Below are positions 15,122 through 22,065 of a stretch of DNA of 64,000 bases, one piece after another (the stretch's first letter is position 1; every line of letters starts with the position of its first letter). The stretch is taken from assembly GCF_000271845.1 (NCBI RefSeq), contig NZ_JH719395.1, forward strand, positions 2,697,624 through 2,761,623, read 5' to 3'. The position numbers and the translations under genes were made by a program. The notes under the pieces were generated by a model. It saw only the letters and a program-made list of their open reading frames with translations. It was not told the origin of the DNA and searched no databases. The stretch comes from Rhizobium leguminosarum bv. trifolii WSM2297. GTDB lineage: Bacteria; Pseudomonadota; Alphaproteobacteria; Rhizobiales; Rhizobiaceae.

Positions 15122-16048
15122 TTATTCCGGCAATGCAGTCTGGCGGAAGAAAGTCTCGATCGGCTCGTCCGGCGGGCCAAACCAGGTGGTGAAGAACGCC
15201 CGGAATTCCGGCGCGGCATAGGTCAGGCTCAGCGCGCGATCGACGCTGAGCCTGAAATCCTCATCGCCCCTGGTCATTTCGAGCCCCAGAGGCTGGAAGG
15301 TAAAATGGCGCTTCAGAACGATCAGATTGCCGGAATCATCACTGCGTGCCGCAGCGTCCATCAGCAGTGACATGTCGCCGAACAGCACCGCCGAACTCCC
15401 GTCACGAACGCGGTCGACACCCTGCTGGTAGTTATTGACCGGCACCGTCGTTGCGGCGAGCTGGAAGGTCTCGATCCTGTCGGAGAGCCACCGTTCGCTG
15501 CTGGTCCCGGCAATCGCCGAAAATGTCTTGTGTTCAAGGATCGTGCGCGCCGGAGAGCCGCGCCAGATCGGCCGGCTCGACGGCTGCCCGTATTCCAGGA
15601 CCTCGCGCAACGCCAGCGGCGCACTTGCTCTCAGCAGCGCGCCCGTGCCGCTCGGAAAGATCGGCAGCGAGAACGAAACCTCCTGCCTGCGGCTGATCGT
15701 TACCGGCTCGGCCGCACAAACGAGATCGACCACGCCGTCCTGTATGGCCCGCGGCCGGGCATCGTTGCCGAGCGGAACCCATTCTATGTTCAATTGCGAG
15801 AGTTTCAGCTCCGCCCTGACGCTGTCGGCAATCTTGTTGCAGAGCGCGACTGCATAGCCATCGGGCGCACCCTGGTCCGACTTGAACGAAAACGGTCTTG
15901 CATCGGGATCATAACCGAGCTTCAGCGAACTGCTGCCACGGATACGATCCAGCGTCTGTGCGACAGCCGGGGTAAAGGTGGCAGTTGCCAGTGCACCGAT
16001 GAAGATGGAGGTGGCAATCGCTGTCCACCGCCCTTTGCTGATTGGCAT
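15122..16048 (-). CDS. Amino-acid ABC-type periplasmic binding protein (SBP_bac_3)
   Basis: The 308-residue protein has a cleavable signal peptide (about 1-30, ending in TPAVA-Q) and the family 3 solute-binding fold: LKLGYDPDARPFSF, GAPDGYAVALCNKIAD, VDLVCAAEPVTISRRQEVSFSLP and GLEMTRGDEDFRLSVDRAL. Such proteins bind polar amino acids, or act as periplasmic sensors. No permease or ATPase gene accompanies it. It starts only 18 bases after the stop of the decarboxylase-antiporter gene, with GGGAGGA before its ATG, so it is the last gene of the adiA-like operon. Arginine or ornithine are natural candidate ligands. It lacks the kinase and cyclase domains often fused to this fold. Confidence 0.85.
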   Translation of the reverse strand: MPISKGRWTAIATSIFIGALATATFTPAVAQTLDRIRGSSSLKLGYDPDARPFSFKSDQGAPDGYAVALCNKIADSVRAELKLSQLNIEWVPLGNDARPRAIQDGVVDLVCAAEPVTISRRQEVSFSLPIFPSGTGALLRASAPLALREVLEYGQPSSRPIWRGSPARTILEHKTFSAIAGTSSERWLSDRIETFQLAATTVPVNNYQQGVDRVRDGSSAVLFGDMSLLMDAAARSDDSGNLIVLKRHFTFQPLGLEMTRGDEDFRLSVDRALSLTYAAPEFRAFFTTWFGPPDEPIETFFRQTALPE

Positions 16049-16066: not shown

Positions 16067-19000
16067 CTATTCTGCCGGCACGTGGTTCGCGCCGCTCGTA
16101 AAGCGCGGCGCAATCAGGCCGTAGATGATGAAACCGATGCCCGTGACCAGCATGCCGCCGAGCACGGCGTCCTTCCCGGAGGCGTAGATGGCGAACACGC
16201 TGTAGAGCATGCCGACAAGGGCGATGGCGGCATTGAGCCGGTATTTCGCCTGGGGCACGCGCGCCGCCTTCATGATGACGAAGAGCGAGGACAGCGCGAT
16301 AATGTATGGCAGCACATTGGTGACGACGGCGAGGTTGACGAGAGCCGAAAACTGTTCGCTGAGCGTCGGCGATATCGTCATCAGCGCCAGGCCTGTCTGC
16401 ACGACGCCGAGGATGATCATTCCCTGGACCGGCGCCCCCATCTCGTTCACCCGTGAAAACACGGTCGGGAACATCCGCTCTTCCGCAGCCGTCCGGGCGG
16501 TTTGCGCAATCGTGAACTGCCATCCGAGAAGCGAGCCCAGGCAGGCAAGCACGGCAAGTGCCATGATGATCGAACCGATCGTCGGGTTGAACATCGTGGC
16601 ATAGGCGAGCGCGAACGGACCGGTCGACGCGGCGAGATCGGCATTCGGCACGATGCCCTGAATGACTGTCGTCGACAGGATGTAGATGACGGCCGCCCCG
16701 AGCGTGCCAAACATGCAGGCAAGCGGCACATCACGTTTCGGGTTCTCGACGGCATCGGAATTTTGCGCCGCCGACTCCATACCAAGGAAGGCCCAGAGCG
16801 TCAGGGAAATGCTCGACCCCATCCCCTGGCCGAGCGAAAGCCCCTTCGGGGTCCAGGCGGCAGCAAAGGTGCTGGAACTGAACCAAAGCCATCCGATGAT
16901 CGATAGCAGTCCGACCGGCAGGATAACGCCCCATACCGTGACCGAGCCGATGCGCCCGGTGATGCGCGGACCGCCGAAATTGGCGGCGGTCGTCAGCCAG
17001 AGAAGAATGATCAAAGCCACGCAGGTCATGATCGGGGTGGAGGTCAGCGCCGGGAAAAACCCGGCGAGATAGCCGACGGCGGAGATGCCTATCGCAACAT
17101 TGCCGATGGCGAGCGACAGAAAATACAGGAAGAACACCATGAAATAGCCGTCCTTCCCGTAGGCATCCTCGGCATAGGCGGACATGCCGCCGGGCCGCTG
17201 ATTGAACAGGCCGGCCTGTGCGAACCCATAGGCGATCGCCATCGAGCCGACGGCGGTCACGATCCAGGAGAGCAGCGAGATCGCCCCGACCTGCGCCATG
17301 TTGGCGGGAAGCATGATGATGCCCGATCCCATCATGTTGACGGCGACGATGAAGGTGAGCTGCACCAGGTTCATCTTCTTCTTGGCCGTGGTTTCGGTCG
17401 CGAGATGCATTGTGTTGTCGGTCATGATGAGATCCTCCGTCCCCCACTCGCGCACGACATACGTATAGAACTTGATCCGCCCATCGATCCGTTCCTGGAA
17501 CACGCCCTGCACTTCGTAATTGAAGCCGGGGAAACGATTGAAGGATTCCTCAAAGGCCAGGAAATAGTCGCGCATCGGCCGTGCTCGCTCGTCCCAGCGC
17601 TCTCCCGGCACGATCACGCCGATGCCCGGCGGATAGATCAGCGCCAGTGTCGCCGAGATGCGGCCGGCGGCCTGGGCGAGCGGCACATAGTCGACATTGT
17701 TGGCGACCAGCGCTTCATAGGCCTGTTTCGGTGCGATCGCCGGCTCCGGAAAGCTCTCGGAGCGGAAGCAGAGCCGCTGCAAGTCCTTGACGCCGGCCTG
17801 ACGATAGAAGGAATGCATCTCCTTGCAGACCTGGCGAACCGTATAGCCCGCATAGCGTTCGCGATTGGCCGCAAACACGGTCGGCAGTACCTCCGGCAAT
17901 GGCGCGTCCCGATCCCAGAGGTTCTTGAACTTCACCAGCTTGGCGACCAGCGTATTCAGCTTGCTTTCGTCCTCTGCCGGCGTCAGCAGGAAGAGCAGGC
18001 TGTTTAGGTCGCACTTCTCGGGCACGACCCGCTGCTCGCGAAGATAGTTGGCGACCACCGTCGCCGGAATGCCGAACTCGCGATATTCGCCGGTCTCGCG
18101 GTCGATGCCAGGCGTGAGCAACGTCAGCTTGTTGGGGTCGACCATCGTATAGCCGGGCGCGTAACCGGCATAACCATGCCACTTCGCCTCCGTGTCGAAG
18201 CGCCAGCACTGCTGCTCGCGCTTCAGCACATCGGTCGGCACATCCTCCCATCGTATCTCGGCGAGGTCGCTCGTATGCGTCGAACCGGAGACGGTGATCT
18301 TGTCGGGTACGAAGGGATCGAAGAACCATTGCTCTTCGGGGCTCGCGGCCTTGCACTCATAGTGCTGCACGAAGCCGCGTAACTTCTTGCGCACCTCGAT
18401 GCCAAGTCCGATACAGCGATCCCAGAGCATCTCGCCGGCCTTGCCTTCATGGACCTTGGCGTTGACGTCGAGCGAGGCAAACAGCGGATAGAATGGCGAT
18501 GTCGACACATGCATCAGCAGGGACTCATTGAAGCGCTTGTGCTCGATGAACCGGCGCTGGCCCTTGATATGTTCGTCCCGCTTGTGGATCTGCGAGGCTT
18601 GCGAAAAGCCTGCACCCTGCTTGTGCACCGATTGCGTCGAGAACAGCCCCGGCATGTCGGGCCGCAGGTCGTCGAGGCGCATCGGGCTGTGGCCCTCGAA
18701 CAGCGGATGAAACGCATTGTATCCGATCCAGGCCTCGTCCCAGAGCACGTAGTCGCAGAGATGGCCGATCTTCTCCATCACCTTGCGCACGTTGTAGATG
18801 GTGCCGTCATAGGTGGCGAGCTGAATGCAGGCGAGACGGAAGGGTCTTTCGCCATCGGCGCGGCTCTTGTCGGCAACGAGCGGATGCGACGCGATCTGGC
18901 GTCGCAGCCAGGTCTCGTCCCACGCCTCCCAATCGACGGCGCCGATCATGCCGAAGGCGTTGCGCGCCGTCGGTAGAAAGATCGGGATGGCGCCGGCCTG

Positions 19001-19807
19001 CACCAGAGCGCCCTGATGAAGAGACTTGTGATTGTTGCGGTCGAAGAGCACGAGATCGCCCGCCCGCAATACGGCGTTGGTGACGACCTTGTTGGAGGTG
19101 CTCGTTCCATTCAGGATGAAGTAGGTGCGATCGGCGCCGAAGATGCGCGCCGCCTGCTTCTGCGCTTCCGCCGCCGGCCCCTCGTGAATCAGCAGATCGC
19201 CAAGATCGACGTCGGCATTGCAGAGGTCGTTGCGAAAAACGCTTTCGCCGAAATATTTGAAGAAGAGCTGGCCGGCCGGCGACTTCCGATAAAACTGCCC
19301 GCCCTGGTGGCCGGGGCAATCGAAGGCGATGTTGGCCTCGCCGTCATAAGCCATCATGCCGCCGAAGAACGGCGGCAATAGCGACTTGCCGTAGTTGACC
19401 AGGCTCGAGATGATCTGTTTGGCGTAGAAGGCTGGTGTCTGCTGACCGAGATAGACGAAACCGTCGACTTCGCCGGCCATTTCGACGACATTCATGTCCG
19501 CGATGGTGAGGCTATCGGCCATCGCCCAGATGGGAGTGCGAAAACCGCCATCGCGGACGGAGCGAAGGAAGGTGCGCGCACTCTGCAGCCGCCCGCCTTC
19601 CACAGAGCCAATGTAAGCGCCGACTGACGCATCCTCGGACACGTCGGCGGAATAATCGTCGCGCAGCTCGACATCATAATTATCGGCGGATATCTGCGCC
19701 AGCAGCGCCAGCGCCTGCTGATCGTTGCGATCGACGACCGCCACGATCTTCAAGAGCTTGTGGAAAGGGATGGCAACGGTCGGAGACTTCACATCGCGAG
19801 GGATCAT
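16067..19807 (-). CDS. Ornithine decarboxylase fused in frame to PotE-type ornithine/putrescine antiporter
   Basis: One open frame of 1246 codons. Residues 1-794 are a biodegradative PLP decarboxylase of the SpeF/SpeC type: wing domain (to about 130), FDCPGHQGGQFYRKSPAGQ, LNGTSTSNK, WDEAW, and the PLP Lys396 in TQSVHKQGAGFSQASQIHK. Residues 795-1246 are a complete PotE-like APC antiporter with about twelve helices (MNLVQLTFIVAVNMMGSGII, GWQFTIAQTART). The pair would convert ornithine to putrescine, consuming a proton, and exchange product for substrate. ATG 19807 has AGGAG 8 bases upstream and overlaps the preceding stop as ATGA. GGAGG and an ATG lie inside the frame at the junction (17425), so free PotE may also be made. 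The fusion may be a G-run indel (see the junction entry). Confidence 0.85.
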   Translation of the reverse strand: MIPRDVKSPTVAIPFHKLLKIVAVVDRNDQQALALLAQISADNYDVELRDDYSADVSEDASVGAYIGSVEGGRLQSARTFLRSVRDGGFRTPIWAMADSLTIADMNVVEMAGEVDGFVYLGQQTPAFYAKQIISSLVNYGKSLLPPFFGGMMAYDGEANIAFDCPGHQGGQFYRKSPAGQLFFKYFGESVFRNDLCNADVDLGDLLIHEGPAAEAQKQAARIFGADRTYFILNGTSTSNKVVTNAVLRAGDLVLFDRNNHKSLHQGALVQAGAIPIFLPTARNAFGMIGAVDWEAWDETWLRRQIASHPLVADKSRADGERPFRLACIQLATYDGTIYNVRKVMEKIGHLCDYVLWDEAWIGYNAFHPLFEGHSPMRLDDLRPDMPGLFSTQSVHKQGAGFSQASQIHKRDEHIKGQRRFIEHKRFNESLLMHVSTSPFYPLFASLDVNAKVHEGKAGEMLWDRCIGLGIEVRKKLRGFVQHYECKAASPEEQWFFDPFVPDKITVSGSTHTSDLAEIRWEDVPTDVLKREQQCWRFDTEAKWHGYAGYAPGYTMVDPNKLTLLTPGIDRETGEYREFGIPATVVANYLREQRVVPEKCDLNSLLFLLTPAEDESKLNTLVAKLVKFKNLWDRDAPLPEVLPTVFAANRERYAGYTVRQVCKEMHSFYRQAGVKDLQRLCFRSESFPEPAIAPKQAYEALVANNVDYVPLAQAAGRISATLALIYPPGIGVIVPGERWDERARPMRDYFLAFEESFNRFPGFNYEVQGVFQERIDGRIKFYTYVVREWGTEDLIMTDNTMHLATETTAKKKMNLVQLTFIVAVNMMGSGIIMLPANMAQVGAISLLSWIVTAVGSMAIAYGFAQAGLFNQRPGGMSAYAEDAYGKDGYFMVFFLYFLSLAIGNVAIGISAVGYLAGFFPALTSTPIMTCVALIILLWLTTAANFGGPRITGRIGSVTVWGVILPVGLLSIIGWLWFSSSTFAAAWTPKGLSLGQGMGSSISLTLWAFLGMESAAQNSDAVENPKRDVPLACMFGTLGAAVIYILSTTVIQGIVPNADLAASTGPFALAYATMFNPTIGSIIMALAVLACLGSLLGWQFTIAQTARTAAEERMFPTVFSRVNEMGAPVQGMIILGVVQTGLALMTISPTLSEQFSALVNLAVVTNVLPYIIALSSLFVIMKAARVPQAKYRLNAAIALVGMLYSVFAIYASGKDAVLGGMLVTGIGFIIYGLIAPRFTSGANHVPAE
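17422..17445 (-). promoter_or_regulatory. Decarboxylase/antiporter junction with internal ribosome site and G5 run
   Basis: On the minus strand a run of five G (17445-17441) is followed by ACGGAGG, then ATG at 17425 beginning the PotE-like part (MTDNTMHLATE). As written the frame is open (EWGTEDLIM). Removing one G would make the decarboxylase end EWGRRISS-stop, with its TGA overlapping the ATG as ATGA, the same coupling seen between the preceding gene pair. So either a real fusion arose by one added G, or the run is misread, or slippage yields both forms. Confidence 0.75.
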
Positions 19808-22065
19808 TCTGGCTTCTCCTGCGTGATGCAATCGACAAGATACCGCCGCCGGCCATCACCGGCGGCAAACCGCAGCCCGTGGATGTCGGTCTCGAAACCC
19901 GGGAATTTGCGGTCAAAATCGCGGGCATAGAGGAGGTAATCCTGGATCGACTTGGTCGATTGCGTGATCCGCTCGCCCGGCATGATCAAAGGAATGCCCG
20001 GCGGATAGGGAACGATCATGACCGCAAGCACGCGGCCCATCAGGCCGTCGATCTCGACGCTTTCGATCTGCCCCTTGACCAGCCGATCATATGCGTCCGC
20101 CGGTCTGAGTGCCATCTCGGGCAGGACCGTATACATCTCGCGCTGCGCCTTCGGCACATCATCCCTACGATAGACTGCATGGATCTGCTCGCAGAGATCC
20201 TTCAAACCCAGGCCGCCATAGGCTTCAGGATGCGCCGCGGCGAGGGCCGGCAGCGCGCGCGTCAGCGGTGCATTCGTGTCGTAGAGGTCCTTGAAATTGA
20301 TGAGTTCGGTGACGAGCGTGCTCCACTTGCCGCGGGTAATCCCCATCGAAAAGAGAACGAGGAAGGAATAGAGGCCGGTCTTCTCGATTTCGATGCGGCG
20401 CGAGGACAGGAACTTCGTGACGACGGCGGCGGGAATGCCGTGTTCCTGCATGACGCCGCTTGCCGACAGTCCTGGCGAAAGGATGGTGACCTTGATCGGA
20501 TCGACCATCACGTGATTTTCGGCCAGGCCCGCAAAACCGTGCCAGGCATCGTTCGGCTTCAGGACCCAGTCGGCGTGGGTGTCGCTCGGCGTCTGTTCGG
20601 CAACCGTCGGTTCCCAGACGTCGAACCACCAGCCTGCTGCCGTCTGCTCTCGAACGGAGTTCATGGCGCGGCGGAAGCTGATTGCCTCGTCGATCGTTTC
20701 CTGAACGAGTGCCCGCCCGGCCGGCTGTTCCATCATCGCGGCCGCGACATCGCAGGATGCGATGATGCCGTATTGCGGCGAGGTCGACGTGTGCATCATG
20801 AAGGCTTCGTTGAACCGGGTAATGTCGAGACGCTTGTTCTCGGCATGCTGGATGTGGATCATCGATGCCTGCGAAAGCGCCGCCAGCAATTTGTGGGTCG
20901 AATGGGTGGCGAAGGTTATGGCGTTTTGCGACCGCGCCGGCTGTGCCGAGGAAATGGCGTGAAAGCCGTCGTAGAACTCATGAAAATTGGCGTAGGCATA
21001 CCAGGCCTCGTCGAAATGCAGCACCTCGACCGCGTTGCCGAGCGACGCCTTGATCGCATCGATATTGTAGCAGAGCCCATCATAGGTGGAGTTGGTGATG
21101 ACCATCAGCCGCACCTTGCCGCTTGTTTGGCCGGCAAACGGGCTGGCGGCAATCTTTCCGGCGATCGCTTCAGGCGTGAACTGGTCTTTCGAAATCGGCC
21201 CGATGATGCCGAGGCCGTTTCGCGACGGCGTCAGGTAGATCGGCGTCGCTCCGGTCATGATCAGCGAGTGCAGGATCGACTTGTGGCAATTGCGGTCGCA
21301 AAGCACCAGATCGCCACGCCCGACCATGCCGTGCCAGACGATCTTGTTTGCGGTGGATGTGCCGCCGACGACGAACAGCGTTTCGTCAGTACCGAAGATG
21401 CGCGCGGCATTGCGCTCGCCCTCGGCGATCGGTCCGACATGATCGAGCAGCGAACCGACGCTGCCGACGGATACCGAGATATCCGACCTCAGCGTATTCT
21501 CGCCGAAGAAGCTATAGAACAGTTGCCCGACCGGGCTTTTCCGGAAGGCGACGCCACCGCCATGGCCGGGCGTATGCCAGGAATAGGCACCCTCCAGGGT
21601 ATAATTCATCAATGCCTTGAACATCGGCGGCGGCAGCCGGTCGAGGTAATTGCGCGCCGCCTGCACGATGGCGCGCGCCATGAACTCAGCCGAATCCTCG
21701 AAAAGCCGCAGGAATGCATTGGCGTGACGCAACACGCCGGCTGGAACATCTTCGGCGGTCGTGTCGTCACCAAAGAGGAAAATCGGCAGCCGGTCGTTCT
21801 TCCGGCGCTTTGCGCTTAGCACCTCTTCCAGCACTTGCCAGCGCGAGGCCTTGTCTTCCGTACCGTCGACGGAAACCAGCCAGCAGGCTTCCGTGTTGAA
21901 GATATGCACGAGACGGCGCGCATCCTCATAGGAGAGACCGGAAACGATGCGGAAGCCCTCATTCTCGATCGCCGCCGCCAGATCGCGCATGCCGCGCCCG
22001 GCGGCACTCTTGCCGTCAAAATCCTCGTCGATGACGGCGACCGGAAATGCCTTATGGAATTCCAT
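19804..22065 (-). CDS. AdiA-like biodegradative arginine (or lysine) decarboxylase
   Basis: The 753-residue fold-type I PLP decarboxylase fits the AdiA/CadA class. An N-terminal wing domain (about 1-125) precedes the core: YSWHTPGHGGGVAFRKSPVG, VVGGTSTANKIVWH, STYDGLCYN, FDEAWYAYANFH, then Lys392 in ATHSTHKLLAALSQ (PLP Schiff base). The C-terminal LFSMGITRGKWSTLVTELINF and YPPGIPLIMPGE resemble AdiA more than CadA, so arginine to agmatine is preferred. Cytosolic proton consumption gives acid resistance. GGAGGG is 4 bases before ATG 22065; a TTG/ATG extension to 22173 is unlikely. A perfect FNR/FixK box lies 99 bases upstream. Its stop overlaps the next start (ATGA). Substrate is inferred from motifs only. 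Confidence 0.9.
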   Translation of the reverse strand: MEFHKAFPVAVIDEDFDGKSAAGRGMRDLAAAIENEGFRIVSGLSYEDARRLVHIFNTEACWLVSVDGTEDKASRWQVLEEVLSAKRRKNDRLPIFLFGDDTTAEDVPAGVLRHANAFLRLFEDSAEFMARAIVQAARNYLDRLPPPMFKALMNYTLEGAYSWHTPGHGGGVAFRKSPVGQLFYSFFGENTLRSDISVSVGSVGSLLDHVGPIAEGERNAARIFGTDETLFVVGGTSTANKIVWHGMVGRGDLVLCDRNCHKSILHSLIMTGATPIYLTPSRNGLGIIGPISKDQFTPEAIAGKIAASPFAGQTSGKVRLMVITNSTYDGLCYNIDAIKASLGNAVEVLHFDEAWYAYANFHEFYDGFHAISSAQPARSQNAITFATHSTHKLLAALSQASMIHIQHAENKRLDITRFNEAFMMHTSTSPQYGIIASCDVAAAMMEQPAGRALVQETIDEAISFRRAMNSVREQTAAGWWFDVWEPTVAEQTPSDTHADWVLKPNDAWHGFAGLAENHVMVDPIKVTILSPGLSASGVMQEHGIPAAVVTKFLSSRRIEIEKTGLYSFLVLFSMGITRGKWSTLVTELINFKDLYDTNAPLTRALPALAAAHPEAYGGLGLKDLCEQIHAVYRRDDVPKAQREMYTVLPEMALRPADAYDRLVKGQIESVEIDGLMGRVLAVMIVPYPPGIPLIMPGERITQSTKSIQDYLLYARDFDRKFPGFETDIHGLRFAAGDGRRRYLVDCITQEKPE

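Follow-up and report, generated by a model that had tools for sequence, protein, structure and literature searches.

Gene content and organization of the locus

Genes for two amino acid decarboxylases and an antiporter lie side by side on the minus strand of the stretch analysed here (the window), which comprises 64,000 nucleotides of Rhizobium leguminosarum bv. trifolii WSM2297 (contig NZ_JH719395.1). We found that an ornithine decarboxylase gene (odc) and the antiporter gene potE occupy a single continuous reading frame (Table 1), as the original prediction had claimed; translation gave 1246 residues, and the coordinates agreed with that prediction, which had left out the strand. An alternative start in the list of open reading frames, an upstream TTG at 19831, would give 1254 aa. 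The fused frame is real, and both halves are genuine genes rather than chance frames. The identities proposed earlier for the two genes were upheld by NCBIfam and Pfam scores.

Table 1. Features of the odc-potE locus in the window. Residues are those of the fused protein.
Feature	Position	Strand	Remarks
Orn/Lys/Arg decarboxylase paralogue P0002	19804..22173	−	Upstream; its TGA overlaps the odc ATG as ATGA
Fused odc-potE frame	19807..16067	−	1246 codons by translation, ends in TAG
Predicted SpeF-type ornithine decarboxylase	17447..19807	−	Residues 1-787
Pfam OKR_DC_1_N			Residues 34-139
Pfam OKR_DC_1 (major domain)			Residues 145-615
Pfam OKR_DC_1_C			Residues 641-772
Codon 788, TGG	17444..17446	−	Base differing from the closest relative found, 17445
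Linker WGTEDLI	17426..17446	−	Residues 788-794; stop plus spacer in relatives (junction alignments)
Five-G run	17445-17441	−	
GGAGG, Shine-Dalgarno-like	17434..17438	−	8 nt 5' of the potE ATG
potE ATG	17425-17423	−	
PotE putrescine/ornithine antiporter	16067..17425	−	Residues 795-1246 plus TAG stop; domain and family-model scores
Pfam amino acid permease domain			Residues 813-1210
Solute-binding protein, SBP_bac_3	15122..16048	−	After potE and in its frame, beyond the TAG at 16069-16067

The decarboxylase scored 909 bits with NCBIfam model NF010092 (cut-off 794) and 896 bits with the stricter exception model TIGR04301 (ODC_inducible, SpeF; cut-off 1310). Because the latter cut-off was missed, the protein is classed from these scores as an ornithine decarboxylase of the SpeF type and not as a SpeF equivalog proper. 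It can be aligned to the ornithine decarboxylase structure 1ORD, including the residues QSVHKQ, whose lysine we take to be the PLP-binding residue, and the major and C-terminal OKR_DC domains are present with the PLP-lysine region. The PotE half exceeded the cut-offs of NF007938 (698 bits; cut-off 409) and TIGR04299 (576 bits; cut-off 560) and can be aligned to AdiC structures. The family models predict that it exchanges putrescine for ornithine.

Downstream of potE, the frame relation to the solute-binding protein gene was compared in 48 loci: the two genes were in the same frame in 19, in another frame in 24, and fused in two, and in three the gene was not found in the stretch examined. Across these loci, the same-frame layout is not conserved. 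PotE is fused to a solute-binding protein elsewhere, namely in P0004 (756 aa, with the binding domain C-terminal), L034, and L070. Among the best 120 of 278 proteins, such PotE-binding protein combinations were 707-775 aa long, and all but P0054 carried PF00497. A secondary antiporter with a tethered binding protein is unusual, and the arrangement looks established. In our literature search, nothing on a PotE-binding protein fusion was found among the matches listed.

A single-base difference at the junction

The closest relative found was Rhizobium hidalgonense FH14 (L001), whose junction aligned to that of the window without gaps and with equal length. The relative reads GAG TAG GGG and the window GAG TGG GGG, a single A-to-G difference at 17445 that turns an amber stop into a tryptophan codon. 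The comparison spanned 180 nt, within which the 75 nt 5' and the 30 nt 3' of the changed base are identical. The spacer of R. esperanzae SEMIA 4089 (L075) is also identical to that of the window, but TAG is retained there. In this same R. esperanzae locus (contig same as L161 and G020), odc seems to lack an internal segment (residues ~511-749) and potE is intact.

Compared with L001, no net frameshift was found in odc, potE, or the solute-binding protein gene. Sites differed at 13% in odc and 6% in potE, and the differences were mostly silent (dN/dS 0.050/0.603 and 0.006/0.258 for the two halves), reflecting a constraint that predates the mutation. Identity over the region ranged from 82% to 99% depending on the segment, so substitutions are common. 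The tree built from 37 decarboxylase ends placed the window together with the TAG-bearing L001; the support of 93/93 was just under the program's mark for firm support. The segment 20989-18200 (minus strand), which covers the latter half of the upstream decarboxylase gene and the beginning of odc, was 82-86% identical to R. hidalgonense, compared with 88-99% in the other segments. This mosaic divergence suggests a recombination tract in either the window or R. hidalgonense.

Distribution of the fusion among related genomes and proteins

We surveyed the junction in 162 sequences (161 loci and the window), in both orientations and with a 47-residue decarboxylase anchor. With limits of 75% identity at the decarboxylase end and 68% in PotE, 91 rows passed, and these represented 54 distinct junctions including the window. 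None of the 53 related junctions had odc fused to potE, and codon 788 was TAG in 38 of them. Moreover, among 148 genomes searched in the genus of G001, a close copy was present in 41, every one of which was examined; the fusion was absent from all 41, and codon 788 was TAG in 36, CAG in four, and CAA in one. The search of related genomes for this junction that had been proposed along with the original prediction therefore returned no second fusion in either set. In a draw of 394 genomes of the family, three matches covered both halves, with an internal TAG in G001 and G018 and TGA in G227. A wider set of junctions, including loci below the identity limits, had separate genes at 79/79 loci; at one of the loci, L079, the decarboxylase stop was found near the start of the match and PotE has its own upstream stop. 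For the junction comparison, 80 of 324 relatives were retained, and among plasmid records 126 had a match, 60 were listed, and 11 were taken in. The exact mutated junction was missing from 150 loci, a slightly different 30-base junction pattern was missing from the 148 genus genomes, and the five pattern matches in viral contigs were all unrelated. One candidate from another genus (G321, contig 51), with an open frame given as 1272 aa for decarboxylase plus PotE, was rejected, as its DNA contains two open stretches, one of 769 and one of 467 codons, that are separate from each other.

At the protein level, 5.77 billion proteins were searched within a length range of 804-2558 aa and scored on PotE alone. 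Among the 7994 scored candidates, a single protein was returned (P0125; 902 aa, one member), and the window's own protein was not among the results. P0125 starts within the decarboxylase C-terminal domain, its PotE is broken up by stretches that do not resemble PotE, and it also includes a binding protein. The partial decarboxylase domain and the interrupted PotE speak against a true fusion, and judging from the protein sequence, P0125 apparently derives from a frameshifted contig. Precomputed Pfam domains and lengths revealed no decarboxylase-PotE fusion among the best 120 of 278 and the best 120 of 7998 proteins, and a literature search (titles and starts of abstracts) found no decarboxylase-antiporter fusion among the matches listed. 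As a test for a conserved fusion family, the fused architecture was sought in independent genomes and was not found (0/53 junctions; P0125 only).

Spacer frame and repeated loss of the odc stop

Codon 788 is a stop in 44 distinct related junctions, and the spacer between this stop and potE could be measured in 43 of them (all except L034; the spacer of L019, for example, is 22 nt). The spacer lengths fell into the three frames 16, 11, and 16 times, so the frame is not kept; on these counts the spread is as expected of an unconstrained spacer. Because the frame is not conserved, nothing points to selection for a fusion. The spacer is in frame and has no further stop in 15 of the 44 junctions, such that losing the codon-788 stop alone would fuse the two genes.

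Losses of the stop were counted among 45 distinct relatives from plus-oriented loci with the long decarboxylase anchor, a set that leaves out minus-oriented loci and L075. CAG or CAA replaces the odc stop in eight of these (L012, L016, L026, L030, L103, L145, L147, and L148), and all eight have an extension of 7-8 codons followed by an ATGA overlap with potE. These junctions are located at four places in the 37-row decarboxylase-end tree, and the TAG label must have changed three times or more to fit the branches with good support. Given these repeated changes, the odc stop is regarded as labile. Judging from the junctions compared, the length of the spacer decides whether loss of the stop leads to an ATGA overlap or to a fusion.

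Origin of the fused frame

The locus is probably an ordinary Rhizobium-type operon, made up of the decarboxylase paralogue, odc, potE, and the solute-binding protein gene, in which one base change, private to this strain, removed the stop of odc. An A-to-G transition in WSM2297 would have converted the amber codon that ends odc to a Trp codon, and since the spacer is by chance in frame and free of stops, translation would run on into potE. As far as the collections searched go, the stop loss is most likely confined to this strain, and the product would not represent a conserved fusion enzyme. This base change probably arose recently and is tolerated without having been selected or conserved.

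A sequencing or assembly error, with an A as the true minus-strand base at 17445 and the two genes separate, is an improbable alternative. The nearest relative has A at this position, the base is at one end of a run of G, and TGG at codon 788 was found in none of the 53 distinct relatives, all of which would be consistent with such an error. However, odc, potE, and the solute-binding protein gene are free of net frameshifts relative to L001, the 13% and 6% divergence of odc and potE from this relative makes a real substitution unremarkable, and the codon-788 stop has also gone in other lineages. We consider a real private allele more likely than a base-calling error.

It is still less probable that the fusion is functional and was selected, with a tethered decarboxylase passing putrescine to the exchanger and taking up its ornithine, so that decarboxylation is coupled to export at the membrane. 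Several observations would be in line with this possibility. Both halves are complete, PotE is joined to another operon neighbor (the solute-binding protein) in other lineages, and the decarboxylase and the antiporter form a physiological pair, as described in a passage of PMC10385936. A putrescine-ornithine antiporter gene of Rhizobium phaseoli, which may not be the potE orthologue, was strongly induced by aluminium and ranked among the top three induced genes, according to an excerpt of PMC8909678, and transporters rank with the most frequent partners in gene fusions according to part of the text of PMC4921024. These points are set against the survey, in which none of the 53 related junctions was fused and the spacer frame was not conserved (16/11/16), and against the length-restricted protein search, which returned no intact example. 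Furthermore, decarboxylases of this family are large oligomers, and one assembly would collect ten or more PotE copies. The coupling proposed earlier, read as a selected enzyme-exchanger fusion, was not supported by these comparisons.

The least credible explanation is that an inserted G made the join, the true run being four G with the first gene ending in an ATGA overlap: one G fewer would indeed give a TGA overlapping the potE ATG, as in R. leguminosarum-type relatives, but L001 aligns without gaps and at equal length with its spacer already in frame, such that one substitution (TAG to TGG) is enough and accounts for the five-G run. The worry expressed with the original prediction, that the run at 17441-17445 contains an extra G and that a four-G run would speak against the fusion, was correct in that the relatives have four G, preceded by an A, and was mistaken in that the length is unchanged and no G was inserted.

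Predicted products of the fused frame

The junction has the ribosome site and ATG that had been predicted for it, and two products are plausible. Initiation at the odc ATG would yield a protein with a predicted mass of ~137 kDa (the figure of the original prediction), in which about 20 residues would connect a cytosolic enzyme with the first helix of PotE. Initiation at the internal site would yield free PotE. The 111-nt region around GGAGG folds weakly (z = +2.0; 198/200 shuffles fold at least as well), and given this weak folding and the spacing of GGAGG to the ATG, free PotE is probably still made. It had been suggested that both forms could be made; this may apply to free PotE from the internal start, whereas free decarboxylase would not be restored and would be lost unless released by proteolysis. 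With the potE ribosome site intact, we infer that the likely output is the fusion plus free PotE, without free decarboxylase.

In PotE/AdiC-family transporters the N- and C-termini both face the cytoplasm, and the decarboxylases of this type form large oligomers in the cytosol. Because of these locations, the fusion is topologically possible. That the strain makes a membrane-tethered decarboxylase-PotE, namely a large oligomer bearing a ring of its own exchangers, together with free PotE from the internal start, is a doubtful reading to which we give a small chance. In that case the locus would produce no free decarboxylase, and its ornithine decarboxylation would be confined to the membrane.

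Comparison with known systems and biological implications

The same gene pair, odc1 and a putative putrescine/ornithine antiporter gene, is described for pSymA of Sinorhizobium meliloti in the portion of PMC10385936 consulted. The pSymA junction in our survey (L150), which from its replicon and neighbor would be that of odc1, has a protein identity to the window of 87% at the decarboxylase end and 86% in PotE. However, its genes are separated by a TAA stop and a 30-nt spacer, whereas those of the window are fused. The speF-potE pair of enterobacteria and others belongs to the same two protein families, and the genes are neighbors in the gamma-proteobacterial and Firmicutes loci examined, but they are separate and the identity to the window is ~47-58%. 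The R. leguminosarum-type loci L012, L145, and L147 have likewise lost the codon-788 stop, but with CAG at this position and the spacer in another frame, which gives an eight-codon extension to ATGA instead of a fusion. PotE is joined to an operon neighbor in P0004, L034, and L070 as it is in the window; the partner in P0004-type fusions, which have many members, is the downstream binding protein, whereas that in the window is the upstream decarboxylase.

Apart from the loss of the stop, the locus is ordinary as a biological system. An in-frame spacer leaves such an operon one substitution short of a fusion, and the same stop loss gives either an ATGA overlap or a fusion according to the length of the spacer. 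If expressed, the TGG allele would be a natural one-base experiment that joins an enzyme to its own exchanger.
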